A DNA stretch of 64,000 nucleotides from Paracoccaceae bacterium (GTDB taxonomy: Bacteria > Pseudomonadota > Alphaproteobacteria > Rhodobacterales > Rhodobacteraceae), in NCBI GenBank assembly GCA_009773375.1, contig WRPH01000008.1, positions 1 through 64,000 of the forward strand. The letters run 5' to 3'. Position numbers and translations under genes: made by a program. Shown one piece after another: positions 216 through 35,724 of this stretch (its first letter is position 1; every line of letters starts with the position of its first letter). The notes beneath the pieces were generated by a model that saw only the letters and a list, made by a program, of their open reading frames with translations, did no database searches and was not told where the DNA came from.

Positions 216-229
216 TCTGGATCAACAGC

Positions 230-6006: not shown

Positions 6007-6073
6007 GGGGGCCTCCTGAATTTGACCATCTGGTCGGGAAGTGTGGGCCGCTTGCCGCCAAAGTGCAAGCGCC

Positions 6074-7144
6074 CTACAGCACTTCGGTCGGCGGATTGCC
6101 CGGCAGCGTCACCTCCATCAGCTGCAGATCAGCGCTGCAATCTGAATACCGCGTCGCCATCCCCGGCGGGATCACAAAGGCATCGCCGGGCGACAGCCGG
6201 TAGGGGTCTTTGCCCTCGCCCTCCAGTGTCATTTCGCCGCTCATCACAAAGCTGAACAGAATATCGCCGTGATGTTTGGTCCAAGGTGCCACGCCAACAG
6301 GCCGGGCCACCATCACCGACGCGACGCCTCTGGTATTGGCGTTGATCGTGGTGTCGCGCGCTTCAAACCCCGGAATGCGGAAGGGTTTGAACACGCCCGT
6401 CGCACCAATATTATGCACAAAGCGCTGGCCATCCCATTCCCGCTCGCGGTTGATCACTCCGTTCGGCAGCGTCATGGTGTGATCAATTTCGGTGACATGT
6501 TCGGCAGGCACGCCGATTTCCACCACCTGCACGCCTTCGGAATGCAGCACCTTGTGACGGATGGTGGGGGGCTGAATAAAGCAGTCGCCCGCCTGAATGC
6601 GCAGGATATCGCCTTGATCTTCATACAAAACATCAACCCACCCGGCGACGCAGAAGATCAGCTGAAACCCGACCTTGTGGTAATGCACCATATCCGGCAC
6701 CGGGCCATCCGGCACCCGGATGTGGCTGGCAATCATCGCGCCGCCCAAGCGCGTCGGCACCAGATCGCGGTATTCCATCCCGGCGCGGCCAATCACCCAC
6801 GGCGCCTGGTCTGCCAGACGGCGCACTACAAACGCATGTTCGGTTTTCGGCAGGACCAGCGGCGGGTTCAGCTCGTCAATCTCAACCCGCGTGCCACCCG
6901 GCGAGGTCAGCGCCTTGGCGCCATCGGCAATCGGATCATCGGTCAGAATGCGCAGCTGCGCCGGGGCCACCGTGCAGCCCGCATCCAGCCGCAACCGCAA
7001 GCCATGCCCGGAAACCACCGCGATCTGCGGGTTATCGGCGGGATAGATCATATCCATTCGCATCCCCAAGGTCTTGGTAAAGAACGGCAAATCCTTGCGC
7101 AGATCGGTCGTGGGCACCAGCATTTCGGCGCGGATATCAGACAT
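6074..7144 (-). CDS. Glyoxalase-like/bicupin fusion protein
   Basis: About 356 residues. The N-terminal ~95 residues read as a VOC/glyoxalase half (LVPTTDLRKDLPFFTKTLGM, then GHGLRLRLD). Two cupin barrels follow. The first has a metal-type motif HYHKVGFQ near residue 152 with a later PTIRHK histidine. The second, near residue 305, has KHHGDILFSFVMSG followed by SPGDAFVIPPG. The start is the ATG at 7144 with AAGGGG six bases upstream; a longer open frame upstream runs through the promoter region. Cupin/VOC proteins are often dioxygenases, isomerases or sugar-binding proteins, and I cannot assign a substrate. It diverges from the malic enzyme gene across an 18-bp dyad. Confidence 0.8.
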   Translation of the reverse strand: MSDIRAEMLVPTTDLRKDLPFFTKTLGMRMDMIYPADNPQIAVVSGHGLRLRLDAGCTVAPAQLRILTDDPIADGAKALTSPGGTRVEIDELNPPLVLPKTEHAFVVRRLADQAPWVIGRAGMEYRDLVPTRLGGAMIASHIRVPDGPVPDMVHYHKVGFQLIFCVAGWVDVLYEDQGDILRIQAGDCFIQPPTIRHKVLHSEGVQVVEIGVPAEHVTEIDHTMTLPNGVINREREWDGQRFVHNIGATGVFKPFRIPGFEARDTTINANTRGVASVMVARPVGVAPWTKHHGDILFSFVMSGEMTLEGEGKDPYRLSPGDAFVIPPGMATRYSDCSADLQLMEVTLPGNPPTEVL

Positions 7145-7362
7145 TTGCATCCCCTTTTGGGCGGAAAGATTTGCGACATACTTCAAACCTGAAAGGTTCA
7201 TTTCAAGCGTTTTCTTGTGATACGAGATATCAACGCCCTTGCGAGCCTGCACCATAGGTTTAAAGCTGCCCGGCGAAACCAGAACCGCAGCGCAGCGCCA
7301 GTCATTCGCAGTCATATCCGAAAAGACTTGCCGCAAAGCTAGGGTTTGAGAATTTCAAAATA

Positions 7363-7380
7363 TGGTTTAGCACTAAACCA
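7363..7380. promoter_or_regulatory. 18-bp operator-like dyad between the cupin gene and maeB
   Basis: TGGTTTAG-CA-CTAAACCA is a perfect inverted repeat (8-bp arms, 2-bp centre) lying 20 bp before the maeB ATG and about 220 bp before the divergent cupin gene. The size and symmetry suit a dimeric GntR- or MarR-class repressor, but no such regulator gene is in the window. The position would block transcription or ribosome loading of maeB. Confidence 0.55.
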
Positions 7381-7400
7381 AATTATTGCGAGGGGCGCGG

Positions 7401-9680: not shown

Positions 9681-9695
9681 GGTGTTCTTTCCTTT

Positions 9696-9956
9696 ACCCG
9701 ATTTGTTTTCAAACAAATCGGGTCGCGCCTGCCTGCCCATGGCAAAGACGCAGGTGGCTTCGGCCCGAACCGAAAGAAAACTCTGCGGGGCAGAGTTTTC
9801 CGGTTCGTTGTTCATAAGGCCGGAGGCCGTTGAACAAGGGAGTTCATGCCGCAAACAATCGTTTGAAAATCGGGGCGCGGCGGCCTGGGCTGGCGCGGTT
9901 ACGCGCCTGCCAGGGGCAGGCAGGCGCGACCCGATTTGTCGCGTGACAAATCGGGC
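9696..9956. repeat. Nested inverted-repeat element, ~260 bp
   Basis: The element is bounded by two similar perfect hairpins: 9696-9723 (13-bp arms beginning ACCCGATTTG, 2-nt loop) and 9930-9955 (11-bp arms CCCGATTTGTC, 4-nt loop). Long arms at 9713-9738 and 9914-9939 are exact reverse complements over 26 bp. A central hairpin at 9768-9808 has an 11-bp core stem (9777-9787 with 9791-9801) and an outer CGAACCG/CGGTTCG stem. No protein is supported. The first hairpin can terminate maeB; the whole looks like a mobile or extragenic structured repeat. Confidence 0.7.
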
Positions 9957-10018
9957 AAGCCCCACCTATCCTACCAGCAACGGCCACCAAACAAACTTCG
10001 CAAACTCACTACACCATA

Positions 10019-10107
10019 TTTGCAAACCTGCGCCTTCTTCGCGCAAAGCAGAATAAACCGCTACAGTTTGCAAAAATTTGCCACCCCATCCACGCAATTT
10101 CTGCAAA
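10019..10107. promoter_or_regulatory. Cluster of TTTGCAAA boxes upstream of prpE (candidate ScfR/PccR sites)
   Basis: TTTGCAAA occurs exactly at 10019-10026 and 10067-10074. The second copy is followed after 2 bp by the near-copy TTTGCCAC at 10077-10084. Weaker copies TTCGCAAA (9998-10004) and TCTGCAAA (10100-10107) flank them. The short-chain fatty acyl regulators of this order (PccR in Rhodobacter sphaeroides, RamB) are known to bind TTTGCAAA repeats at propionyl- and acetyl-CoA genes. The cluster lies 80-170 bp before the prpE start, so the match is functionally coherent. The regulator itself is not in the window. Confidence 0.65.
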
Positions 10108-10190
10108 CTTTTTGTCGCAGCCCTGTCGCACTTCTTGCACGACTCAGCGCCCAGCGCGTAACAGGGTCCAAGCTTTGGAGGAGGCATACC

Positions 10191-12083
10191 ATGGGATACC
10201 GTGAGGTTTACGCTGGCTGGCAGGCAGATCCGGAAGGTTTTTGGCTGAACGCTGCCCAAGGCATTGATTGGGTCAAGCCCCCGACCAAAGCACTGGATGA
10301 CAGCCGCGCACCGCTTTACGAATGGTTCACCGACGCACAAGTCAACACCTGCTGGAACGCGGTGGACCGCCATGTCGAGGCCGGACGCGGCAACCAGTTG
10401 GCGATCATCCACGAAAGCCCGGTGACGCATCTGCGCAAGGGCATCACCTACAAGGAATTGCAGACCCGCGTGGCATCCCTTGCGGGCGCTTTGCGCGACA
10501 AAGGCGTCGGCAAGGGCGACCGCGTCATCATCTACATGCCGATGGTCCCCGAAGCGCTGGAGGCGATGCTGGCCTGCGCTCGGCTGGGTGCGATTCATTC
10601 CGTGGTGTTCGGCGGTTTTGCCGCCAGCGAACTGGCGGTGCGGATCGACGATTGCACCCCGAAAGCCATCATCGCCGCCAGCTGCGGCATCGAGCCGAAC
10701 CGCATCGTGCATTACAAGCCGCTGCTGGATGCTGCGATCACCATGGCCACGCACAAACCCAACTTCTGCGTGATCTTGCAGCGCGAGCAAGAGGTTGCAA
10801 AGCTGATCGAAGGCCGCGACTTTGCCTGGCACACCTTCCAGTATGGCGTGAAACCCGCCGAATGTGTGCCGGTGTCGGGCGATCATCCGGCCTATATCCT
10901 TTATACCTCCGGCACCACCGGCGCGCCGAAAGGCGTGGTGCGCCCGACCGCCGGGCATCTGGTGGCACTGAACTGGACGATGCGGGCGATCTATGATTGC
11001 GGCCCCGGCGATGTGTTCTGGGCGGCGTCCGATGTCGGTTGGGTCGTTGGCCACAGCTATATCTGCTACGCGCCGCTGATCGCCGGCTGCACGACGATCG
11101 TGTTTGAAGGCAAGCCGGTTGGCACGCCCGACGCCGGAACCTTCTGGCGGGTGATTGCCGAGAACAAGGTGAAATCCTTCTTCACCGCCCCCACCGCCCT
11201 GCGCGCGATCAAGCGCGACGACCCCGACGGGCTTCTGGTGCAAGACTACGCGATGAAGCACCTCAAGACGCTGTATCTGGCGGGCGAACGCGCCGACCCC
11301 GATACGATCCTGTGGGCACAGCGGCACCTGAATGTGCCGGTGATTGATCACTGGTGGCAAACCGAAACCGGCTGGGCGATTGCCGCCAACCCGATGGGGA
11401 TCGAGGCTTTGCCGGTGAAAATCGGCAGCCCTTCCGTCGCCATGCCCGGCTTTGACGTGCAGGTGCTGGATGAAGGCGGCCACCCGGTTGCCCCCGGCCA
11501 GTTGGGCGCGATTGCGGTGAAACTGCCGCTGCCCCCCGGCACGCTGCCGACGCTGTGGAATGCCGAGGATCGCTTCAAGAAAAGCTATCTGGCGCATTTC
11601 CCCGGCTATTATGAAACCGGCGATGCGGGCTATGTCGATGAAGACGGCTACCTCTACATCATGGCGCGCACCGATGACGTGATCAACGTCGCAGGCCACC
11701 GGCTTTCCACCGGCGCGATGGAAGAGGTTCTGGCCGGCCACAAGGACGTCGCCGAATGCGCAGTGATCGGGGTGTCGGACGCGCTGAAGGGCCAAAGCCC
11801 GGTCGGCTTTTTGTGCCTGAACAAGGGTGCCAACCGCTCCGCCTCCGAGGTGGTGGCCGAATGCGTCAAGCTGATGCGCGACAAGATCGGTCCGGTGGCG
11901 GATTTCAAACGCGCCGTGGTGGTGGACCGGTTGCCGAAAACCCGGTCGGGCAAGATCCTGCGTGGCACCATGGTCAAGATTGCCGATGGTGGCGCGTGGA
12001 AAATGCCCGCCACCATCGACGATCCGGCGATTCTGGACGAAATCAAGCTGGCCCTGCAATCGCTCGGCTACGCCAAGGACTGA
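10191..12083 (+). CDS. prpE: Propionyl-CoA synthetase
   Basis: About 630 residues. It activates propionate with ATP and CoA through an acyl-adenylate. Visible are the adenylate-forming P-loop YTSGTTGAPKGVVR near residue 245, the WWQTETGW motif, the YETGDAGYVDEDGY hinge region, and the C-terminal catalytic lysine in KTRSGKILRG, the usual acetylation site. The ATG at 10191 has a strong GGAGGAGG site. The N-terminus (YREVYAGWQADPEGFW) is typical of PrpE rather than Acs, but acetate use cannot be excluded. It is probably controlled through the TTTGCAAA cluster upstream. Confidence 0.9.
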   Translation: MGYREVYAGWQADPEGFWLNAAQGIDWVKPPTKALDDSRAPLYEWFTDAQVNTCWNAVDRHVEAGRGNQLAIIHESPVTHLRKGITYKELQTRVASLAGALRDKGVGKGDRVIIYMPMVPEALEAMLACARLGAIHSVVFGGFAASELAVRIDDCTPKAIIAASCGIEPNRIVHYKPLLDAAITMATHKPNFCVILQREQEVAKLIEGRDFAWHTFQYGVKPAECVPVSGDHPAYILYTSGTTGAPKGVVRPTAGHLVALNWTMRAIYDCGPGDVFWAASDVGWVVGHSYICYAPLIAGCTTIVFEGKPVGTPDAGTFWRVIAENKVKSFFTAPTALRAIKRDDPDGLLVQDYAMKHLKTLYLAGERADPDTILWAQRHLNVPVIDHWWQTETGWAIAANPMGIEALPVKIGSPSVAMPGFDVQVLDEGGHPVAPGQLGAIAVKLPLPPGTLPTLWNAEDRFKKSYLAHFPGYYETGDAGYVDEDGYLYIMARTDDVINVAGHRLSTGAMEEVLAGHKDVAECAVIGVSDALKGQSPVGFLCLNKGANRSASEVVAECVKLMRDKIGPVADFKRAVVVDRLPKTRSGKILRGTMVKIADGGAWKMPATIDDPAILDEIKLALQSLGYAKD

Positions 12084-12112
12084 CCGCCTGCGAGGTTATT
12101 TGCAAAGCCTCT

Positions 12113-12140
12113 GCGCGGCGGCTGGACAAAGCCGCCGCGC
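12113..12140 (+). terminator. GC-rich hairpin between prpE and the kinase gene
   Basis: An 11-bp perfect stem (12113-12123 with 12130-12140) around a 6-nt loop sits 30 bp after prpE and 16 bp before the kinase ATG. There is no T-tract, so it may be an attenuator or a processing site rather than a full terminator. Confidence 0.45.
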
Positions 12141-12156
12141 CGCGTAACGTGTTGGC

Positions 12157-13665
12157 ATGACCTTCTCCGATAGCTCTGCCCTGCCGGTTCTGGACCCCCG
12201 CGACGCCCCCGCGATGGCGCTGCTGGGGCATGACCTGCGCGCCGCCCTGTCCGAGGTGATCGGCGGGCTGCGACTGATCGACCCCGCCCCGCTTGCCCCG
12301 GCCAGCCGACAGCAGATCGCCCGCACCAAAGCCGCCGGGGAAGCACTGGCGCTGCTGCTCGAACAGGCGCTGACCCTGCTGGTGGGCGATCACTATGCCG
12401 ATGCCGCCAGCCCGCCCTTGCAGACCGAGCGGCTGTTTGATGGCATCCGCCTGCGCTGGCAGGCCCGCGCGCGCGACCACGGGCTTGGTTTCCTGCTGCG
12501 GGCCAGCACCGATCTGCCCGCGCTGTTGCCGCTGGATGCCGCCCTGATCGAACGCATCCTGTCGAACCTGCTGGGCAATGCGATCAAATACGCCGGGTCG
12601 GGCCAGATCACCTGCGCCTTTGGCCTGACCGCCGACGGTCAGCTCCGGCTGCGCGTGCAGGATGAAGGCCCCGGCTTTGCCCCTGCCGCCCTGCCACGAC
12701 TGTTTTCCGGCAATCCGCTCTCTGACCAAAGCCACAAACCCGGCTCGGGGCTGGGCCTGCATATCGTGCACGAGATGGTCGAAACCGCAGGCGGCCGGAT
12801 CACCGCGCAGAACCGCGCCAGCGGCGGTGCCGAAATCACCGTCACCCTGCCGCTGCCCGATCTCGCCCCCGGCGTGCGGCATGCCAGCACGGCCCCCGAT
12901 CTCAGCCATCTGCGCGTGCTGGTCGCCGATGACAACCAGACCTCGCGCCAACTGCTGTCGCAAATGCTGGCCAGCATGGGGGCCGAGGTGGTCACCGCCG
13001 CCGATGGCGTGCAGGCGGTGGGGCGGATTGAACGCGAAAGCTTCGATCTGCTGCTGATCGACATCGAAATGCCCGGTTTCAACGGGCTAGAGGTGATCCG
13101 CCATATCCGCGCCATGCCCGGCCCGGTGGCGCAATTGCCGATTCTGGCGGTCACCGCTTACCGGCTGCGTGCCAACAAGGCCGCGATCGAGGCCGTCGGG
13201 GCCGACCAGATCCTGTCCAAGCCGGTGCTCTGCCCGATCACCTTGGGCGAAACCGCGCTTGCGGTGCTGCACGGGCGACAGGCCAGACCTGCCCCCGTCG
13301 CCACGGCGCAGATGCAGCCCGACCGTTTCAACCAGCTGCTGGCCATGGCCGGGCCAGACCTTGCCGCCGAACTGCTGGACCGGCTGCAAGAAGATCTGCT
13401 GCGCGCCGAACGTGGCCTGCTCGCTGCGTCGCACCGGATGGATTGGCAAGACGTCCGGGCGCAAACCCATGTGCTCATGGCACTGGCGGGCACGGCGGGC
13501 GCGCTGCACCTGCAATATCTGGCCGAAGAAATGAACGCGTTGGCCCATGCCGACACCCCGGATCGCGGCACCTTCCTGACGCTATTGCCGCAATTGCTGG
13601 AGGCACTGGATACCTTGATCCATTTCGTCGGACGTCACTCTCCAGACCAAGGGGGCAAGCCGTGA
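12157..13665 (+). CDS. Cytoplasmic hybrid histidine kinase (HK-REC-Hpt)
   Basis: 502 residues with no transmembrane segment and no recognisable N-terminal sensor domain. The H-box is at the extreme N-terminus (LLGHDLRAAL, H25). The HATPase follows with the N-box (LSNLLGNAIKYAG, ~135-148) and G-boxes DEGPGF and GSGLGLHIV. A receiver domain begins near residue 252 (VLVADDNQ, phosphoacceptor in LLIDIEMPG). An Hpt-like helix near residue 438 (RAQTHVLMALAGTAGAL) follows. It is coupled by a GTGA overlap to a sigma-54 response regulator. No strong ribosome site precedes the ATG. The input signal is unknown; the neighbour prpE suggests carbon or CoA status, as an inference only. Confidence 0.85.
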   Translation: MTFSDSSALPVLDPRDAPAMALLGHDLRAALSEVIGGLRLIDPAPLAPASRQQIARTKAAGEALALLLEQALTLLVGDHYADAASPPLQTERLFDGIRLRWQARARDHGLGFLLRASTDLPALLPLDAALIERILSNLLGNAIKYAGSGQITCAFGLTADGQLRLRVQDEGPGFAPAALPRLFSGNPLSDQSHKPGSGLGLHIVHEMVETAGGRITAQNRASGGAEITVTLPLPDLAPGVRHASTAPDLSHLRVLVADDNQTSRQLLSQMLASMGAEVVTAADGVQAVGRIERESFDLLLIDIEMPGFNGLEVIRHIRAMPGPVAQLPILAVTAYRLRANKAAIEAVGADQILSKPVLCPITLGETALAVLHGRQARPAPVATAQMQPDRFNQLLAMAGPDLAAELLDRLQEDLLRAERGLLAASHRMDWQDVRAQTHVLMALAGTAGALHLQYLAEEMNALAHADTPDRGTFLTLLPQLLEALDTLIHFVGRHSPDQGGKP

Positions 13666-15137
13666 CCGCCGCTGCAGCCCCTGCCCCTTTTGTCCCCGTG
13701 TCGGTGCTGCTGATCGAGGATACCGCCTCGCTGCAACTGCTCTATCGGTCTGTGCTGACGCTGGCCGGGCATAGCGTGCTCTGTGCTGCCAACGCGGCCG
13801 AAGGCCTTGCGCTGTTTCACGCCGGAACAGCAAAGCTGGTGCTGCTCGATCTGGTGCTGCCCGACCGCGACGGGCTGGATCTGATGCAAGACATGCTGGC
13901 GCTGCGCCCGGATACAAAGGTCATCGTGATGACGGCGCATGGCTCGATCAACCGTGCGGTTGAAGCGATGCGCGCCGGGGCCTATGAATTTCTGGTCAAA
14001 CCCTTTGACGAAACCCGGCTGCTGCACGCGATTGCCAATGCGGGCAACAATGCCGGGGCAAACCCGTTGCCGCGTCGCGCCGCCGCCGTCAAAGCTGCTA
14101 CAGCCACCTCCGCCTCCAGCAAACCCAATCCGCCGGCAGCGGCCAGCCTGCACCTGCCCGCAACCAGCAACGCCTTCATCGGCTCGTCCGAACCAATGGT
14201 GCGTATCCAAAACACCATCGCTTCGGTGGCGCGGTCGATGGCAACCGTATTCATCACCGGCGAAAGCGGCACCGGCAAAGAGCTGTGCGCGCTGGCGGTG
14301 CATGGCAATTCGCCGCGCGCCGCCGGGCCGTTCATCGCGCTGAACTGTGGCGCAATCCCGCAGGATTTGCTGGAATCCGAGGTGTTCGGTCATATGAAAG
14401 GCAGCTTCACCGGCGCGATTTCCGACAAGCCGGGGGCGGCGACGGCGGCGGATGGCGGCACGCTGTTTCTGGATGAAATCTGCGAAATGGCCCCGGCGTT
14501 GCAAACCAAGCTGCTGCGGTTTCTGCAAACCTCGACGGTGGTGCCGGTCGGTGCCACCCGCCCGCGCAAGGTGAATGTGCGCATTGTCTGCGCCACCAAC
14601 CGCGACCCGATGGAGGCGGTTCGGCGCGGCCAGTTCCGCGAAGACCTGTTCTACCGGCTTTATGTGGTGCCGATCCACATGCCGCCGTTGCGGGATCGCG
14701 GCGATGACGTGATCGAACTTGCCGAAACCGCGCTGGCACGGTTCGCCCAGGAAGAGGGCAAGCAGTTTGACGGCTTGTCGCCCGAGGTGCGCGCGCTGTT
14801 CCGCCGCCTGCCGTGGCCGGGCAATGTGCGGCAGGTGCTGAACGTGATCCGCAACGTCGTGGTGCTGCACGACGGCGGTGTGGTCAACAGCGCCATGTTG
14901 CCCGCATCCTTGCCGCTTCAACTCGACGAGACTGCCGCCGCACTGCTGCCAGACCAGCCGCTCAACCCCGAGCACGCTCTGCAGGCCCTGCTGGGCCGCC
15001 CGCTGGCCGAGGTGGAACGCATGCTGATCGAGGCAACACTGGCGCAGCATGGCGGATCGGTGCCAAAAGCCGCGCGCGTGCTGGAGGTGTCGCCTTCCAC
15101 GCTCTACCGCAAGATCGAAAACTGGACGAAGGGCTAA
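13662..15137 (+). CDS. Sigma-54-dependent response regulator (NtrC/LuxO class)
   Basis: About 491 residues. A receiver domain spans ~12-125 (VLLIEDT; acceptor Asp in LLDLVLPDRDG; Lys in FLVKPFD). A long Ala/Pro/Ser linker (~130-160) precedes an AAA+ domain with Walker A GESGTGKE, the sigma-54 contact loop written GSFTGA instead of the more frequent GAFTGA, and Walker B LFLDEI. A Fis-type helix-turn-helix ends the protein (PKAARVLEVSPSTLYRKIE). The GTG start at 13662 has AAGGGGG upstream and overlaps the kinase stop codon. Together they form a phosphorelay pair; the target promoters are not evident here. Confidence 0.9.
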   Translation: MTAAAAPAPFVPVSVLLIEDTASLQLLYRSVLTLAGHSVLCAANAAEGLALFHAGTAKLVLLDLVLPDRDGLDLMQDMLALRPDTKVIVMTAHGSINRAVEAMRAGAYEFLVKPFDETRLLHAIANAGNNAGANPLPRRAAAVKAATATSASSKPNPPAAASLHLPATSNAFIGSSEPMVRIQNTIASVARSMATVFITGESGTGKELCALAVHGNSPRAAGPFIALNCGAIPQDLLESEVFGHMKGSFTGAISDKPGAATAADGGTLFLDEICEMAPALQTKLLRFLQTSTVVPVGATRPRKVNVRIVCATNRDPMEAVRRGQFREDLFYRLYVVPIHMPPLRDRGDDVIELAETALARFAQEEGKQFDGLSPEVRALFRRLPWPGNVRQVLNVIRNVVVLHDGGVVNSAMLPASLPLQLDETAAALLPDQPLNPEHALQALLGRPLAEVERMLIEATLAQHGGSVPKAARVLEVSPSTLYRKIENWTKG

Positions 15138-26213: not shown

Positions 26214-27047
26214 CAAATCTTGCGTCATTCCGGTCGAAAATGACTGACGCACGGCACTACGACAATCCGTGACAGCCCAGGCAGTGCAATCGCAGCGCAT
26301 CAGGCAGTATCGCGCCACCGGCTGACCAGAAGGAGTGCAATACACTGTAATATATAAGTTTTTCAAAATATTCCCAGCAAAATAGCTACCAGGATCAGCC
26401 CGATCGCGCTGCAATGCAGCAGAAAAATTCAACCGGAAATGCGCCGGATCTTGAGAAATTTTACCGCCAAAATTATTGTTTGCGCTTTGAAAATTGCTGC
26501 CGCTGTCCGATCCGGGCAGCAAATACAGCGCAAAGCCATGACACCAGACAGTTGAACCGCGATCGCCTGACGCGGTAGCAGGGCCAACCTCGACTTTGCA
26601 TCAACCAGCCATCGCGTCGCCATATCGACCAACCGTCTGATCGGTGCCGCTGGAAAGATTGACGCTCAAGACCGGCACCCGGCAAAAGGTCATGCGACTG
26701 GCCACCGACGAATTTATCCGCCGCTTCCTGATCCAGCCCTGCCTGAAGGCTTCCACAGCATCCGGCATTACGGGCCGCTGGCCAGCGCCACACGCAAAGC
26801 GAAGATCCGGAACCTGATGATGAAACTGACGGTGCCAACCAGCCCAAGGCGACGGGCGACTGGTGCAGCCTTGGTCACCTGACCTACAGCGGCTTCCCTG
26901 CGCACGGCCACTGGCGCAAAACCATCGAAGCTTGCGTCAAAGGCGGGGTGGACCGCAGACCTCAACCGAGCAGGCCGTTGATAGGCGCGGAATCGCCTGC
27001 GATCTGCGCCAGAAAAAGGGGCGGTGCCTTGATCGAAACCGCGCCCG
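26214..27047. other. Non-coding, decayed region between two sugar loci
   Basis: About 830 bases with no intact gene. The part near 26330-26480 is unusually A/T-rich for this window (runs such as TAATATATAAG and TTTTTCAAAATATT). The central part carries the IS91-type transposase remnant. The rest, up to 27047, shows no reading frame I can support. Confidence 0.6.
26662..26820 (+). pseudogene. Remnant of an IS91-family transposase
   Basis: Two short pieces in different frames translate to one continuous family motif. Positions 26662-26733 give TLKTGTRQKVMRL followed by ATDEFIRRFLI. From 26739, in another frame, comes LPEGFHSIRHYGPLAS. IS91/IS801 Y2-transposases carry EFIRRFLLHVLPxGFHRIRHYG in this order, so a small indel near 26734-26740 breaks the frame. 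Both ends of the gene are missing. The element is dead and marks an old insertion between the two sugar operons. Confidence 0.75.
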
Positions 27048-27347
27048 TCATGCGACCCTCTCGGACAGCATGGAGAGTGGCCGGATTTCCACGGGACAGG
27101 CCAGCAACCGGTCAAGCTGCGAGAACAGCGGTTGCAGATGTGGCATCGCAAGATGCGCGTCCAAGGCGGCGCGGCTGGTCCAGTTTTCGTAGAACACGAA
27201 GACGCAGGGGTCGGCGGCATCAACGTGGAAGTCGTAGTTGACGCAACCGGTTTCAGCGCGGGTGGGGGCGACCTGAGCTTGCAACAGGGTTGCAAGCTCG
27301 GCGCGGGTTTCGGGGCGGGCGGTGACGGTGCCGATGATCGTATACAT
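27048..27347 (-). CDS. ABM-family protein (putative quinol monooxygenase-like)
   Basis: 99 residues. A ferredoxin-like antibiotic-biosynthesis-monooxygenase fold: IIGTVTARPETRAEL at the N-terminus, ETGCVNYDFHVD near residue 37, FVFYENWTSRAALDAHL near 50. Members are cofactor-free oxygenases or small-molecule binding proteins such as sugar mutarotase-like domains. It sits one base after the permease gene as the last gene of the sugar locus, so a role on the imported sugar or a keto-derivative is inferred, not shown. Confidence 0.8.
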   Translation of the reverse strand: MYTIIGTVTARPETRAELATLLQAQVAPTRAETGCVNYDFHVDAADPCVFVFYENWTSRAALDAHLAMPHLQPLFSQLDRLLACPVEIRPLSMLSERVA

Positions 27348-27348
27348 G

Positions 27349-28305
27349 TCAGCCCTTCTTCTGGCTCAGGGCGACGGCAAGGATGATGATCCCGCCGCGG
27401 GCGATCAGTTGCTGGCTGAACTCCAGCCCCATCAGGATCAGGGCGTTGTTGATCAGCCCGATCATCAGCGCGCCGACAATGGTGCCGATGACGGTGCCCT
27501 TGCCTCCAAACAGGCTGGTGCCCCCCAGAACCGCCGCCGCGATGACTGAAAGCTCGTCGCCCTCGCCCAGTTGGAAGCGGCCCGATTGCAGACGCCCTGC
27601 ATAAAGCATCCCCGCCAGCGAGGCCGCGCAGGACGACAGCACCAGCACGCGGAACTTGATCGCTGCGGTGTCGATGCCGGAATAGCGCGCGGCCGTCTCG
27701 CCCCCGCCCGTGGCCAAGACCCTGCGGCCAAAGCCCGAGCGGCGCAGCGCCACATGCCCGATGCCACCCAGCACCGCCATCCAGAACAGCAGCACCGGAA
27801 TGGGGCCGACCGAGCCGCCGCCAAAGACCCAGGAATAGGCGGGCGACAGGATCGGAACGGCGGCGGTATCGGAAATCCACATCGCTACACCCTTGGCGAT
27901 GCCCATCATCGCCAGTGTGGTCAGAAACGAAGGGATGCCGATTTTCGTGGTCAGCCAGCCGTTGAACATGCCCACAGCCAACCCCGTGGCCAATCCGGCC
28001 AAAATGCCGCCCAAAGGTCCGGCGACAGAGATCGCCATCGCGACCGTCACGGTGGCAAGCCCTGCGACCGCGCCGACCGACAGGTCAATTTCGCCCGCCG
28101 ACAGCACGAAAGTCATGGCCACCGCCATCACCGCGATCATGGCGGTTTGGCGGACGATGTTCAGCAGGTTGTTGGGGTTCAAAAACCCCTTGTCGTTCAG
28201 CGTCAGCGCGAAGACCACGAAGATCACCGCAAAGCCGATGTAGATGATGTTCTGCCGCCAATTGGCGAAGAATGCCCCGACGGGGGCGGTTGCTGGCTTA
28301 GCCAT
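27349..28305 (-). CDS. Sugar ABC transporter permease (RbsC type)
   Basis: 318 residues, about eight to ten membrane helices. CUT2-family signatures include NPNNLLNIVRQTA near residue 45, LSAGEIDLSVGAVAGLA near 65, and RLQSGRFQLGEGDELSVIAAAVLGGTSLFGG in the C-terminal third. It is a homodimeric channel working with the double ATPase upstream, whose 3' end it overlaps by 8 nt. Confidence 0.92.
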   Translation of the reverse strand: MAKPATAPVGAFFANWRQNIIYIGFAVIFVVFALTLNDKGFLNPNNLLNIVRQTAMIAVMAVAMTFVLSAGEIDLSVGAVAGLATVTVAMAISVAGPLGGILAGLATGLAVGMFNGWLTTKIGIPSFLTTLAMMGIAKGVAMWISDTAAVPILSPAYSWVFGGGSVGPIPVLLFWMAVLGGIGHVALRRSGFGRRVLATGGGETAARYSGIDTAAIKFRVLVLSSCAASLAGMLYAGRLQSGRFQLGEGDELSVIAAAVLGGTSLFGGKGTVIGTIVGALMIGLINNALILMGLEFSQQLIARGGIIILAVALSQKKG

Positions 28306-29869
28306 GGTTGGCCTCCTTTATGCTCAGGGCGTTCTGGATTTCGATTTGCAGGCGGCGCTCGGCGGCCTGAAGGGCGTGTTCGGGATCGGTGTTGGCGGGA
28401 TCGTCCAGATCGGCACGGTCCAGCATCTGATGCGCGCGCCCGTCCGCCATCACGAGGATGCGGTCGCAGGCGGTCAGCAATTCCGACAGTTCGGACGAGA
28501 TGACGATCACGGCCTTGCCCGACTGGGCCAGATCGCGCACCAGACGGATGATTTCGGATTTCGATCCGATGTCGATGCCTGCCGTGGGTTCGTCAAGGAT
28601 CAGGATTTCCGGCTCGGTCGCCAGCCACTTGCCGATCACCACCTTTTGCTGGTTGCCGCCAGACAGGGTGGAAACGGCATGGTCGCGGCTGGCGGTCTTG
28701 ATCGACAGGCGTTGGATCATCGCATCGGCAACCGCGCGCACCTGCGCCCGATCCACAATGCCGCGCGCCGAAATACGCCCGATCACCGACATCACCATGT
28801 TATCGGCAACGCTATGGGCGGGAATGATGCCTTGGGTCGCCCGCGCCTCTGGCACAAGCGCGATGTGATGGGCGATGGCATCGGCAGGGCGACGGATCGC
28901 AACCTTCTGGCCCTTGATGCGGATGTCACCCGCAACGGCAGGTTCAACCCCCGCAATCACCCGCGCCAGGGCCGAGCGGCCCGATCCCAGCAGACCGGCC
29001 AGACCCAGCACCTCGCCTCGATGCAGCGCAAAGCTGACGTTTTCGGGTTTGTGCGGTCCGGTCACGCCGGACAGTTCCAGCAAGACCTCGCCCCGCACCA
29101 CGTCCCCGCGCGCCACATCGGCCAGCCCTTTGGAACGTTTACCGACGATATGTTCGATCATCACATCAATCGGCAGATCGGCCAGCGGCGCGGTGATCAC
29201 ATGCCGCCCGTCGCGCAGGATCGTGGCGCGGTCGGCGATGCGGGCGATTTCGTCCATGCGATGGCTGACATAGATGATCGCCACGCCTTCGGATTTCAGC
29301 TGCCGCAAGAAGGTAAACAGCCGGTCCACATCCGAAACCGACAGCGCAGTCGATGGTTCATCCAGGATCAGAACCCGCGCCTTCTGGCTGATCGCCTTGG
29401 CAATCTCGGTCAACTGCTTTTGGCCTGCGCCAAGATCGCCAACCAGCGCCTTGGGGTCCACCTGCACTTGCAGCATGTCGAACAGCGCCTGCGCGCGGCG
29501 GATGGAATCCGCGTCGTCGATCATGCCGCGCGCGTCCCGCGCCTCGCGGGTCAGAAAGATGTTCTGCGCCACGGTCAACGTCGGGATCAGCGACATTTCC
29601 TGAAAGTTCATCGCGATGCCAGCAGCGCGCGAGGCTTCGGGCGTGTGGGTGGCAAGCGGTTCGCCCCCCACGAAAATCTTGCCCTCGTCCGGCACATGCA
29701 CGCCGTTCAGCACCTTGAGGATGGTAGATTTCCCCGCCCCGTTGCCACCCAGCAGGGCATGGACCTCTCCGGCGTGAACTTCGAAATCCACGTTGTCCAG
29801 CGCGCGGATGCCGCCGAAGGATTTGGAAATCCCGGTCATCCGCACGGCGACTGGGGCGGGGGCGGTCAT
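28298..29869 (-). CDS. Sugar ABC transporter ATPase, double domain (RbsA type)
   Basis: About 523 residues with two nucleotide-binding domains. The first has GGNGAGKST near residue 42 and ILDEPSTALS near 167. The second, as usual in this family, has a degenerate Walker A (GLLGSGRSALA, ~290) but an intact signature LSGGNQQKVVIGKWLA (~405) and ILDEPTAGID. The first domain's signature is also altered (DLGAGQKQL). The ATG at 29869 overlaps the dehydrogenase stop (ATGA). Confidence 0.93.
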   Translation of the reverse strand: MTAPAPVAVRMTGISKSFGGIRALDNVDFEVHAGEVHALLGGNGAGKSTILKVLNGVHVPDEGKIFVGGEPLATHTPEASRAAGIAMNFQEMSLIPTLTVAQNIFLTREARDARGMIDDADSIRRAQALFDMLQVQVDPKALVGDLGAGQKQLTEIAKAISQKARVLILDEPSTALSVSDVDRLFTFLRQLKSEGVAIIYVSHRMDEIARIADRATILRDGRHVITAPLADLPIDVMIEHIVGKRSKGLADVARGDVVRGEVLLELSGVTGPHKPENVSFALHRGEVLGLAGLLGSGRSALARVIAGVEPAVAGDIRIKGQKVAIRRPADAIAHHIALVPEARATQGIIPAHSVADNMVMSVIGRISARGIVDRAQVRAVADAMIQRLSIKTASRDHAVSTLSGGNQQKVVIGKWLATEPEILILDEPTAGIDIGSKSEIIRLVRDLAQSGKAVIVISSELSELLTACDRILVMADGRAHQMLDRADLDDPANTDPEHALQAAERRLQIEIQNALSIKEANHG

Positions 29870-31032
29870 TCCACCCGCTCCCATTTGCCGGTTTCGCCGG
29901 ACCGCAGCAGCGCATCTGCAACCAGTTCGGTCAGCAGACCGTCTTCAAAGTTCGGGCTGGGCTGCTTGCCGGTGGCAATGGCGGTGAACAGGTCAAAACA
30001 TTCCACGATCTTGGTCTCCGAATAACCGATGCCCAGACCGGGGATCGGCCACAGACCGCCGCCATAGGGATGGGCCGGACCAGTATAGACAGTGCGGAAA
30101 CCGCGCGCATCTGCCGGATCATCCGCGAACATCACCTGCAATTCGTCGCGACGTTCATAGTTGAAGGCGATCGAGCCTTTGGTGCCGTGGATTTCCAGCG
30201 TGATGAAGTTGTTGCGGCCCCAAGCGTTGCGGGTGGCCTCAAGGCTGCCGATGGCACCATTGCCAAAGCGCAGCATCGACACGACCTCGTCATCGACATC
30301 GACCGCAGCCCGTTCGGAATGGGCGGATTTCTCGGAGGCACCCAGCTTGTCAACGCCACCCTGCTGGATCGGGCGGGTGGAGATATAGGTCTTGGTCATC
30401 GCGATCACCTCGGCAATCGGGCCGACAAGGTAATGCGCCAGATCGACAACATGGGTGGCAATGTCGCCAACAGTGCCGGAGCCTGCGATTTTCTTCTGGA
30501 AACGCCACGACAGCGGGCCGTTTTCATCCGCCGACCAGTCTTGCAGATAGGTGCCGCGGAAATTGAGGATGCGCCCGATGCGGCCTTCCTCGATGTATTT
30601 CTTGGCCAGCGCCACGGCGGGCGTGCGGCGGTAGTTGAAGGCGACCATATGGATGATACCTGCGGCCTTGGCGGCCTCGGTCATGGCGCGGGCCTCTTCG
30701 ACGGTGCGGGCCAGCGGCTTTTCGCAGATGATGTGCTTGCCAGCCTTGGCGGCGGCAATCGCGATCTCGGCGTGGACGTTGTTCGGGGTGCAGATATCGA
30801 CCACGTCAATATCGGGCCGCGCCACAACCGCGCGCCAGTCGCTGGACGCCTCGTCAAAGCCGAAACGGCGGCGGGCCTCTTCGGCGGCCCCGTCGGTGAC
30901 ATCGACCACAACCTTGCGGTGGGGGATGGCAGGGGCAGGCCAGAAGAACATCGGCATCGAGGCATAGGCCATGGCATGCGCCTTGCCCATGAACCCGCCG
31001 CCGATCATGGCGACGTTCATTACTTTGGTCAT
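29866..31032 (-). CDS. Gfo/Idh/MocA dehydrogenase, levoglucosan-dehydrogenase-like
   Basis: About 388 residues. The Rossmann domain starts with IGGGFMGKAH near residue 8, and the catalytic lysine motif CEKPLART is near residue 100. The blocks SMPMFFWPAPA, FNYRRTPAVALAKKYIEEG, FRGTYLQDWSAD and YTGPAHPYGGGLWPIPG recall, from memory, the levoglucosan dehydrogenase branch, which oxidises the C3 hydroxyl of 1,6-anhydroglucose with NAD; I could not verify this by search. The ATG at 31032 follows GGAGA; the upstream extension lies in the intergenic stem-loop. It is encoded within the ABC transporter operon. Confidence 0.8.
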   Translation of the reverse strand: MTKVMNVAMIGGGFMGKAHAMAYASMPMFFWPAPAIPHRKVVVDVTDGAAEEARRRFGFDEASSDWRAVVARPDIDVVDICTPNNVHAEIAIAAAKAGKHIICEKPLARTVEEARAMTEAAKAAGIIHMVAFNYRRTPAVALAKKYIEEGRIGRILNFRGTYLQDWSADENGPLSWRFQKKIAGSGTVGDIATHVVDLAHYLVGPIAEVIAMTKTYISTRPIQQGGVDKLGASEKSAHSERAAVDVDDEVVSMLRFGNGAIGSLEATRNAWGRNNFITLEIHGTKGSIAFNYERRDELQVMFADDPADARGFRTVYTGPAHPYGGGLWPIPGLGIGYSETKIVECFDLFTAIATGKQPSPNFEDGLLTELVADALLRSGETGKWERVE

Positions 31033-31157: not shown

Positions 31158-32279
31158 TTATTGCATCGAAGCTTTCACGTTCTCGGTGGCTTCGGTCGAA
31201 TAGACCTGAGTCCATGCCTCAAGCAGGTTGCCTTGCGCGACGGGCAGCGCGGGTAGGGCCACGAAATCGGGCGCGTCCTTGTCGAGCAGGGCGTAACCGG
31301 CCAGCTTGGCTTCGACCACACCGGCGTCATAGGGGCGTTGCGCGCCCAGACCCTTGATGAACCCGCCTTGCGCCATGCTGATGGCGACGTTTTCACCAAG
31401 GTCAACGGTGGTGATGATCAGATCATCGCGGCCATTGGCGCGGGCTGCGGCCATCACACCTTCGGCAGGCACGTCCCAGACCGCCCAGATACCCTTGATA
31501 TTCGGGTTCGAGATCAGCATCGCACCGGCTGCCTTTTCGGCATCGCCCGAAAAGTCCGGCCCGCCGATCCCCTGTTCATCCACAATCTTGATGTTGGGGT
31601 AATCACTGGCAATCGTGGCCTTGAAGGCGTCGTAGCGCTGTTTGGTCACGAAGAAATCGGCGGCATGGAAGACCAGACCGATCTCGCCGCCATCAGGGCC
31701 AAGCGCCTTGGCCATCAGGTGGGCCGCCGCAACGCCGTTGCCGTAGTTGTCGGCGGACACGACCGAGACGTAATCGGTGCCTGCCACGAAACCTGCCGGA
31801 ACGTTATCCATGAACACCATCTTTGCCCCAGCCGCTGCCGCTGCGCGATAGGCGGCTGCGGTAGCTGTCGGGTCGGTCGGGATCGACACGATGATGTCGG
31901 GCGACTGCGCCATGATGGTTTCAAGGTCGCTGACCTGCTTTTCCGGCTTGAAGCCTGCGTCGGTCACGGCGATCACGTCGATCCCCATCGCGGCGAACTG
32001 GGTTTGCAGGCCGTTGATCTGCGCGCGGCTCCAGTCGTTGCCGCCGTAGTGCATCACGATGGCGGCGGTGGCGCCCATCTCTTTGATCTTTGCCAGCTCT
32101 TCATCGCTGAGCACCACATCGGATGCGAGCGACGGGTCTTCGCCGCTCGGCCCTTTGGACAGGACGGTTTCCTGCAACTTGGCAAGTGCCTCGTCCGGAC
32201 CAGCAATGGCCGGAACTCCTGCGCCCAAGGCAATCGCAAAGGCTGTGACGGAACACATAAGGGTTCGTCTGGTCAACAT
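31158..32279 (-). CDS. Periplasmic sugar-binding protein (RbsB-like), possible Tat substrate
   Basis: About 373 residues. The signal peptide (~1-28) starts MLTRRTLM, close to the twin-arginine pattern, and ends with GVPAIAG. The mature part is a type-1 periplasmic binding protein: AAIVMHYGGNDWSRAQING near residue 75, GFKPEKQVSDLETIMAQSPDIIV in pieces near 110, and VSVVSADNYGNGVAAAHLM near 175. The start has GGGAGGAAG upstream. It resembles the leaderless protein encoded at 34720-35724, so the two probably recognise the same or related ligands. Confidence 0.88.
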   Translation of the reverse strand: MLTRRTLMCSVTAFAIALGAGVPAIAGPDEALAKLQETVLSKGPSGEDPSLASDVVLSDEELAKIKEMGATAAIVMHYGGNDWSRAQINGLQTQFAAMGIDVIAVTDAGFKPEKQVSDLETIMAQSPDIIVSIPTDPTATAAAYRAAAAAGAKMVFMDNVPAGFVAGTDYVSVVSADNYGNGVAAAHLMAKALGPDGGEIGLVFHAADFFVTKQRYDAFKATIASDYPNIKIVDEQGIGGPDFSGDAEKAAGAMLISNPNIKGIWAVWDVPAEGVMAAARANGRDDLIITTVDLGENVAISMAQGGFIKGLGAQRPYDAGVVEAKLAGYALLDKDAPDFVALPALPVAQGNLLEAWTQVYSTEATENVKASMQ

Positions 32280-32334: not shown

Positions 32335-33156
32335 CTAGCCCGCAATCGCCCGTTTCAGGTAATCCATGCTTAGCCGCGCGCCCGCTGCGGGGTCGGGCCA
32401 AGCGTCGAGTTCGGTGCAGACCCAACCGGCAAAGCCGATGTCCTTCATCGCCTGAAGAATGGGTCCGGTGGGCACGTCACCCCGATCCAGCGGGGTAAAG
32501 GCGAAGGGCTCACGCTGAAATCCCTTCAGGTGGACATAGCTGATGCGCGTCGCATGATCGCGGATCAGCTGTGCCGGATCACCACCGGCGGCGGCCAGAT
32601 GTGCCGTGTCGGGGCAGAAATCGATGGCGGTCAGATCGAAGATCTTGGCGACTTCAGCCGGACCTTCGACGATGGTGGACAAGTGCGGGTGGTAATGCGC
32701 CCGCAGGCCCCGCGCCTCGGCCAGTGCCTTGACGCGGTCAAGCGCTGCGCCCAGCTTGTGGAAGTCCGGCTCGCGCGTGCCGTCAAAGCGTTTCGCGCCC
32801 CCCCCCACCACCAGATGCGGCGCACCCAGCTCCGCCGCACGGTCGGCGGCGCGGGTCACGCGGGCCAGTTCCTCGGGCAGGATGTCGTCGAAGATGAAAT
32901 TGCCGCCCGCATAGGTCGCAACCAGCTCCAGCCCGTTATCGGCCAGCATCCGGCGCATCGCCTCGGGGGTGAAATCCAACAGGTTGCCGTCGAAAAGTTC
33001 GACCCCCGCATAGCCCGCCGCCGCGATATCGGCAAAGGCGCGGTCCATGTCGCCAAAGGTGCGATACCGCAACTGGGTGATCGAGGTGACACCCACCGCA
33101 TCGCCCCCAAGGCTGCCCCAGCAATTGGCGTGATAGGCCAGCTTCCACACTGTCAT
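32335..33156 (-). CDS. Sugar phosphate isomerase/epimerase family protein (TIM barrel)
   Basis: About 273 residues. A xylose-isomerase-like TIM barrel (AP-endonuclease-2 family): GYAGVELFDGN near residue 50, ELGAPHLVVGGG near 110, LRAHYHPHLST near 150, and FCPDTAHLAAAGGDP near 180 supply the usual metal-binding His/Asp/Glu set. Relatives include IolE, hydroxypyruvate isomerase and the LgdB enzymes acting on 3-keto-levoglucosan. I chose the ATG at 33156 because the G-run is six bases before it; an ATG two codons earlier sits directly on the G-run. First gene of the operon. Confidence 0.82.
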   Translation of the reverse strand: MTVWKLAYHANCWGSLGGDAVGVTSITQLRYRTFGDMDRAFADIAAAGYAGVELFDGNLLDFTPEAMRRMLADNGLELVATYAGGNFIFDDILPEELARVTRAADRAAELGAPHLVVGGGAKRFDGTREPDFHKLGAALDRVKALAEARGLRAHYHPHLSTIVEGPAEVAKIFDLTAIDFCPDTAHLAAAGGDPAQLIRDHATRISYVHLKGFQREPFAFTPLDRGDVPTGPILQAMKDIGFAGWVCTELDAWPDPAAGARLSMDYLKRAIAG

Positions 33157-33248
33157 GGTCATCCCCCCCGTGTTTCGGCGGCCTCCTCCGGCCGTGTGAC
33201 CTTTTCTTAGGCAGAGATTCGGATTGGGTCAATATTATTTCTGCACAT

Positions 33249-33280
33249 CTTTTGCTACTTCTGCATTATTACAGCAAAAG
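33249..33280. promoter_or_regulatory. Inverted repeat in the divergent sugar-locus promoter
   Basis: CTTTTGCT (33249-33256) and AGCAAAAG (33273-33280) are perfect 8-bp arms separated by 16 bp in an A/T-rich region between the divergent isomerase and ROK genes. Arm spacing puts both halves on one DNA face (24 bp centre to centre, slightly over two turns), suitable for a dimeric repressor such as the adjacent ROK protein. Confidence 0.5.
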
Positions 33281-33343: not shown

Positions 33344-34723
33344 TTGCCACCCTCAGCCCCTGCCCAAGCCGAATCACTGCGCCCAAGGGGAAAGGGCCGT
33401 CCACGGACGGCCGAAACCGCTGCGCCGTCGCTGGTGGAACTGTTGAACCTTGTGCGCAGCGAAACCGCCACCACACGGCAAGAGCTGGAGCGTCACTCGG
33501 ATCTGGGTCGCGCGGTTGTCGCAGACCGGCTGACCATGCTGGGCGACCTTGGTCTTGTGGACGAAAGCGAGCTTGGCACCGCCACAGGGGGGCGCGCGCC
33601 GCGTCTGGTGCGCTTTGCTGCGCGCAAGGCCGCGATCCTTGTGGCAACGCTGGACCAGACCGCCATCGGTGTCGGCGTGGCCGATCTTTCGGGAAATCTG
33701 CTGACCGAACATCACGAGGCCGCCGATCTTGCCGCCCCGCCCGAGCAACTGACCGAGCGGCTGTCGGCGCTGTTCCGCTGGTCGCTGGACCGTCACACAG
33801 CGGCGCAAGGCGTCTGGGGGCTGTCGCTGTCGGTGCCGGGAGCGGTGCAAAGCGGCACCGACGGAGCCTTTCTGACGACCACCCCACCGATCATGCCCGC
33901 ATGGGAGGGGTTCCCGCTGGTGGAAAGCCTGACGCGGGGCTTCGGCGTGCCGGTCTGGATCCGCTCCAGCGTCGAAACCATGACGATGGGAGAGCTGCAC
34001 GCAGGCGCAGGTCTGGGCCAGCGCACTATGCTGTTCATCAAGGTTGGCCGCCGGATCGGGGCGGGTATCGTTTGCGACGGCCAGTTGTTTCGGGGCGCGC
34101 AGGGGGCTGCGGGGCTGATCGGGTCGCTGCCCGTCACCTCGGGCGGGCAGACCGGCTCGCTGGACAGCCTTGCCGGTTCCGAGATGATCCAGCGCGAGGG
34201 CATGGCCGCCGCCACCGATGGCCGCAGCGCCGTTCTGGCCGATATCCTGCGCCGTGGTGGCGAGATCAGCGCAATCGAGGTGTCGCAGGCCGCACAGGTG
34301 GGCGATGCGGCGTCGATCAGCATTCTAGCCACCTCGGGCCATCTGATCGGGCAGGTCGTGGCCACACTTGCCAATGCGCTGAACCCCGATCTGATCGTGC
34401 TGTCGGGGTCGATCGTGCAGACCAACGACATCCTTCTGGCCGCCGTGCGCGAGGCGGTTTACGGGGCCTCGCATCCGCTGGTGACGCGGGATCTGCGCAT
34501 CATCCGGTCGCAGATGGGCAGCTCTGCCGGTCTGGTCGGTGCGGCCCGCGTGGCCTCGGAGGCGCTGTTTGCGCCTGCGTTTCTGAAGGAATGGGTGATG
34601 CAGGGCAGCCCGCTTGGCCATCCGGCTTTTTCCGACTACATCGGGCGGCTGGCCGATATCCCCAAAGCCGCACCCGCCGCACCACCGCCGCCAAGTCGGC
34701 AAGGAAAGGAGCCACTGGCATGA
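33344..34723 (+). CDS. ROK-family transcriptional regulator
   Basis: About 459 residues from a TTG at 33344, which has AGGA seven bases upstream; no ATG or GTG exists in a suitable place, so the start is uncertain. A basic segment RPRGKGRPR precedes a winged helix (~25-75: SLVELLNLVRSETATTRQELE, in pieces). The ROK sugar-kinase-like domain covers ~100-420 (LSLSVPGAV, VGRRIGAGIVCDGQLFRG). The Cys-rich zinc motif of typical ROK repressors is absent: after GAAGLIGSLPVT the CxCGxxGC cluster is replaced by GGQTGSLDSLA. Its stop overlaps the next gene (ATGA). Confidence 0.88.
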   Translation: MPPSAPAQAESLRPRGKGRPRTAETAAPSLVELLNLVRSETATTRQELERHSDLGRAVVADRLTMLGDLGLVDESELGTATGGRAPRLVRFAARKAAILVATLDQTAIGVGVADLSGNLLTEHHEAADLAAPPEQLTERLSALFRWSLDRHTAAQGVWGLSLSVPGAVQSGTDGAFLTTTPPIMPAWEGFPLVESLTRGFGVPVWIRSSVETMTMGELHAGAGLGQRTMLFIKVGRRIGAGIVCDGQLFRGAQGAAGLIGSLPVTSGGQTGSLDSLAGSEMIQREGMAAATDGRSAVLADILRRGGEISAIEVSQAAQVGDAASISILATSGHLIGQVVATLANALNPDLIVLSGSIVQTNDILLAAVREAVYGASHPLVTRDLRIIRSQMGSSAGLVGAARVASEALFAPAFLKEWVMQGSPLGHPAFSDYIGRLADIPKAAPAAPPPPSRQGKEPLA

Positions 34724-35724
34724 CGATTTCAGGTCTTGGCCCGCATGGCGAACGCGCGGCACCGCCCGAACGTGTCACCTTGCTGCCCGATGACCGCGCC
34801 GCCGCCAAGACCGCAGGCTGGCGCGTGGGCGTGGCCCTGCACACGCTGGAAAGCGATTGGGCAAAGCAGTTGCTTGCCGGAATGGTCGGAATTTTCGGCG
34901 ATTGCGGCGCAGCGGTCATCGATGTGGTCGATTGCGGCTTTTCGCCCGAACGGCAGGTGGCGGAACTTGACCGGCTGATCGCCCTGCATCCCGATGCCAT
35001 CATCTCGCTGCCCGTCGCCAACGAACAGGTCGCAGCCGCCCACGCGCGCGTTTCGGCAGCAGGGATAAAGCTGATCCTGCTGGACAATGCGCCGACGGGC
35101 CTTTTGCCTGGCAAGCATTATACGGCCTTGGTTTCGGCGGATAATTTCGGCTTGGGCAAGATCGCAGCCGCTGGCCTTTCGCCTCACCTGCCGCACGGCG
35201 CTGAAGTTGGCGTATTGGGCTTTGCCGCCGATTTCTTTGCAACCAACGAGCGCGAAATTGCCTTCATCAAGTGGCTGCAAGCCAACCGGACAGACATCCG
35301 CGTGCATGTCGCCCGCTTTGGCAGGATCGACGAGGCCGCAGAGCTTGGCGAGCGTCTGGTAAGCGAACACCCGAACCTCGCGGGCCTTTTCATTGTTTGG
35401 GATACTCCCGCACTTGCGGTCTCGGCGCGGCTTGCCGCAAGGGGACGGGCGCTGCCCTTGGCGACAGTCGATCTGGGTGAAGCGGCGGCAATCGACATCG
35501 CCAAAAATGGATCAGTCCGCTGCATCGCAGCGCAACAGCCCTATCAGCAAGGCATCGCTGCGGCGCAAACCGTGATACTCAGCCTTCTGACCCGCCCTGT
35601 GCCGGCATGGATCGCCTTGCCCGGAATCAGCGTAACACGGGGGAATGTCGTTGAGAGCTTTCAAACCATCTGGCGCCAGCCCGCGCCGAAAGAGGTGCTA
35701 CGCGCGCTCGGTCTGTCCAGTTAG
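34720..35724 (+). CDS. Leaderless (cytosolic) RbsB-like sugar-binding protein
   Basis: 334 residues with no signal peptide: the N-terminus is polar (MTISGLGPHGERAAPPERVT) and there is no helix-turn-helix. From residue ~45 it is a type-1 periplasmic-binding-protein fold: GVALHTLESDWAKQLLAG, GFSPERQVAELDRLIALHPDAII in pieces, NAPTGLLPGKHYTALVSADNFG, VWDTPALAVSARL. The order and spacing of these blocks match the exported binding protein at 31158-32279. The ATG at 34720 has AGGAG and overlaps the ROK stop, so both are made together. A cytosolic sensor or co-regulator for the ROK protein is inferred; a LacI relative that lost its HTH is the alternative. Confidence 0.8.
   Translation: MTISGLGPHGERAAPPERVTLLPDDRAAAKTAGWRVGVALHTLESDWAKQLLAGMVGIFGDCGAAVIDVVDCGFSPERQVAELDRLIALHPDAIISLPVANEQVAAAHARVSAAGIKLILLDNAPTGLLPGKHYTALVSADNFGLGKIAAAGLSPHLPHGAEVGVLGFAADFFATNEREIAFIKWLQANRTDIRVHVARFGRIDEAAELGERLVSEHPNLAGLFIVWDTPALAVSARLAARGRALPLATVDLGEAAAIDIAKNGSVRCIAAQQPYQQGIAAAQTVILSLLTRPVPAWIALPGISVTRGNVVESFQTIWRQPAPKEVLRALGLSS

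Follow-up and report, generated by a model that had tools for sequence, protein, structure and literature searches.

The 64,000-nucleotide stretch of DNA analyzed here (the window), taken from a Paracoccaceae bacterium, carries a gene for a ROK-fold protein followed directly by a gene for an RbsB-type binding protein that has no export leader. This arrangement raises the question of what a protein with the fold of a periplasmic transport component does inside the cell and beside a repressor. An original prediction, made from the letters of the DNA alone, proposed a two-part cytosolic sensor in which the binding protein recognizes an imported sugar and modulates the repressor. Our analysis leads us to favor this general reading, and we assign a probability of roughly 70% to the specific form in which the two proteins constitute a split one-component regulator of an operon for levoglucosan, a sugar formed when wood burns.

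The two genes are encoded on the plus strand of a divergent locus whose other arm consists of five minus-strand genes running downward from position 33162. The first of these encodes a sugar isomerase/epimerase-like protein (32335 to 33162, minus strand) with weak NCBIfam matches that fall below cut-off, the best being a myo-inosose dehydratase model; the gene is syntenic in 78 of 83 loci. It is followed on the same strand by the exported RbsB-type binding protein of the transporter (31158 to 32279; Peripla_BP_4, 1e-39), in which a leader is visible, by the levoglucosan dehydrogenase LgdA (29866 to 31032, the start being read from the sequence), and by the ATPase (28298 to 29884) and permease (27349 to 28305) of a sugar ABC transporter. 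LgdA scores 714.5 bits against the NCBIfam levoglucosan dehydrogenase model NF052479 (cut-off 650), and the ATPase and permease match NCBIfam sugar-ABC models, none above its own cut-off. With LgdA above cut-off and ABC genes adjoining it, the locus can be classed on sequence grounds as a putative levoglucosan cluster. Downstream of the permease, also on the minus strand, lie a quinol monooxygenase-like gene (27048 to 27347), 89% identical to its Paracoccus zhejiangensis counterpart, and all that is left of a second sugar isomerase gene found in a related cluster, a relic of about 50 residues (26819 to 26956). Another contig, C51, carries fuller homologs both of this isomerase (65%) and of the dehydrogenase that comes last in the related cluster (60%).

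Both reading frames of the pair were found where they had been predicted. The ROK gene spans 33344 to 34723 and the gene for the leaderless protein (hereafter cPBP; Peripla_BP_4, 1e-26), the proposed sugar-sensing half, spans 34720 to 35724. The ROK stop codon TGA (34721 to 34723) and the cPBP start codon ATG (34720 to 34722) share a four-base ATGA overlap, and a purine-rich element within the ROK gene, AAGGAAAGGAG (34701 to 34711, plus strand), probably serves cPBP as its ribosome-binding site. Although the open ROK frame extends back to a TTG at 33224, the start at 33344, likewise a TTG, is the more plausible because a conserved palindrome at 33258 to 33280 then lies upstream of the gene. 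Translational coupling through the overlap, as originally suggested, fits the 38 of 82 loci that have the four-base overlap, but it does not extend to the other 44, where gaps of 1 to 104 bases separate the genes. In a Paracoccus zhejiangensis record the same overlap was annotated independently.

To define the distribution of the pair, we scanned named genomes with six cPBP queries and kept 80 loci out of 129 relatives. These loci, with cPBP identities from 91 to 54%, belong mainly to Rhodobacterales and Rhizobiales; two metagenome-assembled genomes that carry the labels Flavobacteriales and Acidimicrobiaceae have probably been misbinned. In 79 of the 80, cPBP is immediately preceded by the end of a ROK homolog (the contig of the remaining one begins inside cPBP). 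LgdA is present in 74, in the order permease, ATPase, LgdA, exported binding protein and isomerase, divergent from ROK and cPBP; the other six loci are short or end early. Six of 390 genomes sampled from the order have cPBP at 53% identity or more, and these six also have LgdA above its curated cut-off, which no other genome of the sample does; ten further genomes of this sample carry weaker LgdA relatives. In a class-level sample of 385 genomes the ROK profile matches five, of which the strongest three carry cPBP; the two weaker ones (213 and 193 bits) show no cPBP in the stretches examined, although absences from these large samples are soft since only the first four or five candidates per genome were scored. 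Thirteen plasmid records encode cPBP at 44% identity or above, and the 12 that encode ROK at 47% or above all belong to these 13, with the two genes adjacent by coordinates; the thirteenth (Ochrobactrum CP061776) is rearranged, cPBP being preceded by no more than a C-terminal fragment of ROK and a Gfo/Idh gene. No natural fusion of the two proteins was found among the 79 loci carrying both. Conservation across the named loci and the order sample rules out a single-genome oddity. In three neighborhoods (L133 to L135) taken from the five other ROK matches of the genome, no second pairing of ROK with a leaderless binding protein was found, the binding proteins there having leader-like starts.

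The lack of a signal peptide in cPBP, asserted in the original prediction, was borne out by a test of the 81 of 83 orthologs with a recognized N-terminal anchor. The usual start lies four residues ahead of the conserved GLGPHGE; 48 orthologs offer no in-frame start that would add as many as 12 residues, and the other 33 contain no hydrophobic stretch, their 12-residue hydropathy peaking at 1.2. All 76 exported proteins examined over 60 residues before the same anchor, a segment slightly different from that used for cPBP, do contain one, with a lowest maximum of 1.84. The test of 81 orthologs therefore excludes a missed signal peptide or upstream start. A DNA-binding domain is likewise absent: a Pfam search returns Peripla_BP_4 at residues 36 to 285 and nothing else, and the predicted N-terminus consists of a short disordered stretch and helices at 16-19 and 23-32 before the first Rossmann strand, which leaves no room for a hidden helix-turn-helix before the strand at residue 35.

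The AlphaFold model of cPBP (pLDDT 93.2, pTM 0.91) adopts the common RbsB-type fold, with Z scores of up to 32.0 against solved sugar-binding proteins among the matches listed; LacI chains are not among the best 50 structural matches listed, which excludes nothing. It aligns with the exported protein over 338 positions at 35% identity (E 5e-61), and the exported protein is by a wide margin the best match of cPBP in its own genome (199 bits, the next at 30.5). To describe cPBP as a copy of the transporter's binding protein is nevertheless an oversimplification, as the cPBPs form an old separate clade and not a recent duplicate: a quick tree of 71 subsampled rows (30 cPBP, 29 exported, 12 others), which warns of long branches, places them apart from the exported proteins with SH-aLRT values of 100 and 98. 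Seven putative pocket residues, W47, D122, N123, W227, D228, D251 and Q272, are common to the two proteins, each conserved in 74 to 82 of the 82 cPBPs and in 71 to 77 of the 77 exported proteins; their positions align with what we take to be the ribose contacts of RbsB-type proteins. This shared pocket suggests the same ligand for both. Two differences in the pocket region are fixed or nearly so, F200 in cPBP against Gly and N176 against Lys/Arg in the exported protein, and therefore the ligand or its pose may differ. Altogether the two groups have different fixed residues at 25 positions, including W185, R190, F200, W297 and W318 of cPBP, and these are candidates for a partner surface. Judged from sequence and model, cPBP looks like a working sugar sensor.

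The ROK protein of the window matches the PF00480 domain at 114.4 bits (9.5e-33; cut-off 22.9), and profile alignment runs through an N-terminal winged helix-turn-helix to Lmo0178 (from its residue 19) and Mlc. In the model of an ortholog (L079), this region contains helices at 2-18, 25-32 and 36-48, so that a winged-helix, putatively DNA-binding protein is indicated. Just before this domain (33398 to 33412 region of the window) is a GRP core, R-G-K-G-R-P-R, which occurs close to the N-terminus of 72 of the 82 ROK frames and which we take to resemble an AT-hook.

The sugar-binding residues of ROK proteins are Asn, Asp, Glu, His and Glu, and a zinc motif, GHx9-11CxCGx2G(C/H)xE, has been termed characteristic of all members (PMC2742894). 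In the 82 ROKs paired with cPBP, the Asn-Asp and the acid of ExGH are absent without exception, the His is gone in 79 (three retain it), and the zinc cysteines, whose absence from the window protein had been predicted correctly, are missing there and in 81 of the 82. The former sugar site is mostly occupied by a near-invariant RSSVETMTMGE / GLIG stretch. By sequence, the paired protein would be a ROK by homology and not a canonical sugar-sensing ROK. Unpaired ROKs (L125 and L126, L128 and L129 from the window's own genome, and L155 from Thermus) keep the Asn-Asp, His and cysteines, the ExGH acid position being Asp in L125, L126 and L155, Glu in L128 and Gln in L129. The comparison that may be most telling for the loss of sensing is the levoglucosan cluster of Arthrobacter agilis (LgdA 746.8 bits), which has no cPBP and whose lone ROK keeps the Asn-Asp, an Asp-x-Gly-His and all cysteines. 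Single losses do occur in unpaired proteins: Agrobacterium L154 lacks the Asn-Asp and has the His and cysteines, and L131 of the window's own genome lacks the His, zinc cysteines and ExGH and keeps the Asn-Asp. The L131 gene (neighborhood L133, G000:C70, 2524 to 5430) adjoins a binding protein with a leader. Among the ROKs compared, the whole set of losses is found only in paired proteins.

A possible target for the ROK protein is a conserved palindrome in the divergent promoter, CTTCTGC-N9-GCAAAAG (33258 to 33280), which we propose as its operator on the basis of conservation across promoters. Of 62 divergent promoters, 58 contain the pattern TTTTGC-N9-GCAAAA with at most two mismatches, where shuffled sequences would lead one to expect 0.43; one occurrence (L094) is off register and probably due to chance, which gives a stricter count of 57. 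The 62 promoters are those of the window and 80 loci minus 19, in which anchor motifs were not found (15) or a gene was missing (4). The spacing of nine is preferred, the next best occurring in 10 of the 62 promoters. The genome of the window has one other perfect match to a relaxed pattern, and at one mismatch a reversed control pattern is equally frequent genome-wide; the case for the palindrome thus rests on conservation and not on rarity.

Evolutionary distances link the two proteins. In the 71 of 83 loci with all seven genes (11 were left out because a gene was missing, usually at a contig end, as was the short locus of the window), the partial correlation between ROK and cPBP distances, given the other five genes, is 0.594. 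This is the highest of 21 pairs, the next being 0.362 and the neighboring ATPase-permease pair 0.225, and none of 2000 permutations reaches it; the value may be inflated, as both genes are adjacent and are the fastest of the set. A single AlphaFold chain of the L079 proteins, joined through the intervening TGA, folds in both halves (pLDDT 88.4) with a pTM of 0.66, a model without pairwise errors that counts neither way on an interface. These results bear on the strongest alternative, that ROK responds to a different signal, either a metabolite at its changed site or a general carbon cue, and that cPBP functions independently, for instance as a cytosolic levoglucosan buffer or as an inside regulator of the ABC transporter. 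The fused model does not establish an interface, and the near-invariant stretch in place of the sugar site could bind another ligand. However, cPBP always accompanies ROK and not the transporter genes, and in evolutionary distance it tracks ROK above the exported protein (0.313), the ATPase (0.122) and the permease (0.060); we consider this alternative unlikely.

A second alternative holds that sugar sensing persists in ROK by way of an altered pocket and that cPBP does no more than tune its sensitivity, as CuaD does for CuaS. In keeping with this, the fifth sugar-site position is still Asp or Glu in 80 of the 82 paired ROKs, and two divergent paired ROKs, L124 and Mesorhizobium L136, have lost the Asn-Asp and keep the His and zinc cysteines. 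The Asn-Asp and the ExGH acid are nevertheless both gone in every paired protein, and this alternative appears distinctly improbable. Under the split-regulator reading, the two intermediates read as steps in a hand-over in which the Asn-Asp was lost first and then the zinc site and His. The L136 stretch (Mesorhizobium sp. 131-2-5 plasmid, 1 to 10969) encodes, with its ROK, a leaderless cPBP 44% identical, beside a related cluster with genes for GMC oxidoreductase and gluconate 2-dehydrogenase subunit 3, the dehydrogenase being incomplete in the stretch. In L124 (G675, 7399 to 14458; LgdA 696.7 bits) no exported binding protein lies between the isomerase and LgdA genes, and the stretch stops at the contig end. 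That cPBP is a functionless, decaying duplicate of the exported protein with its leader lost is scarcely credible: it does diverge about twice as much (mean distance 0.506 against 0.243), but its median dN/dS of 0.110 (maximum 0.226; median for ROK 0.126, for the exported protein 0.130) indicates purifying selection, and its invariant pocket residues, single separate clade and retention in 80 named loci speak against decay.

The split regulator is the reading best supported by what was computed, namely a conserved pair, a binding protein with no leader and a mostly shared pocket, a paired ROK with four of five sugar-site positions lost in nearly all cases next to an intact same-pathway ROK without cPBP, purifying selection, excess co-evolution and a conserved palindrome. 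We infer that ROK would bind the palindrome in the divergent promoter and repress the isomerase, exported binding protein, lgdA and ABC operon, and probably its own operon too, while no longer being able to sense sugar itself. Cytosolic cPBP would bind levoglucosan or its 3-keto product after import, and the loaded protein would contact ROK and release it from DNA, rather than activate it. Weighing against this model are the fused-chain pTM of 0.66, the single losses in unpaired ROKs, the His and cysteines kept in L124 and L136, the fifth-site acid kept in 80 of 82, the differences at F200 and N176, and an Arthrobacter ROK that manages without cPBP. On a bolder version, to which we give even odds, the kinase-like domain of ROK was remodeled so that its former sugar pocket became a docking site for cPBP, formed by RSSVETMTMGE / GLIG, the pair is a second recruitment of a transporter-type sensor, outside the LacI family, and the stepwise losses record the hand-over.

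The individual parts of this system are known, whereas the arrangement of ROK with a leaderless binding protein is not, as far as the literature searched shows. LacI-family repressors also use a periplasmic-type binding fold as the cytosolic sugar sensor of a repressor, but carry the helix-turn-helix on the same chain, whereas DNA binding here would reside on a separate ROK. NagC, Mlc and Lmo0178 share the ROK fold and N-terminal winged helix-turn-helix; unlike them, the paired ROK has lost the Asn-Asp, ExGH and zinc cysteines and adjoins a binding-protein gene. For Mlc, too, control comes from a protein partner (EIIB of the glucose PTS) and not from sugar alone, although that partner is a subunit of a membrane transporter that sequesters Mlc (PMC10100716), and the partner proposed here is soluble. 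XylFII-LytSR and CuaDSR use a second binding protein, a paralog of the transporter's, for signaling and not for transport, but it is extracytoplasmic and acts on a membrane histidine kinase (PMC10384115), whereas cPBP is leaderless and its partner gene encodes a ROK; of the two features of ABC substrate-binding proteins, cPBP has the RbsB-type fold and not the export signal. Described lgdA clusters likewise combine lgdA with an ABC transporter, with ROK-type regulators among the lgdA neighbors, and Shinella sumterensis MEC087, which corresponds to locus L085 of our scan, is a named levoglucosan degrader; the excerpted text of that report makes no mention of a second leaderless binding protein or of its pairing with ROK (PMC10066097). 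In agreement with the original prediction, which knew of no system of this form, we found no described switch of ROK and a cytosolic binding protein in the open-licence PubMed Central literature, subscription papers lying outside the search.

Regulators differ across levoglucosan clusters, with LacI in Bacillus smithii and Klebsiella, a lone intact ROK in Arthrobacter, and ROK with cPBP in alphaproteobacteria. The Bacillus smithii cluster carries its LacI gene as regulator (PMC7676230), and a Klebsiella pneumoniae plasmid (L138, 5106 to 15093; LgdA 749.4 bits) has a cluster with a LacI gene. That plasmid stretch also contains a short fragment annotated as a substrate-binding domain, next to IS5-type transposases. 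The simplest account of this variety is that cPBP has taken over sensing from ROK. If true, the pair would represent a second route from a periplasmic-type binding protein to an intracellular transcription sensor, by way of a separate subunit and not a fusion, and would explain how a ROK repressor works with a dead sugar site. It would also offer intermediates for studying the transfer of sensing between proteins and a natural modular levoglucosan sensor. Proteins annotated as 'substrate-binding domain-containing protein' beside regulators may, by extension, be sensors and not transport proteins.
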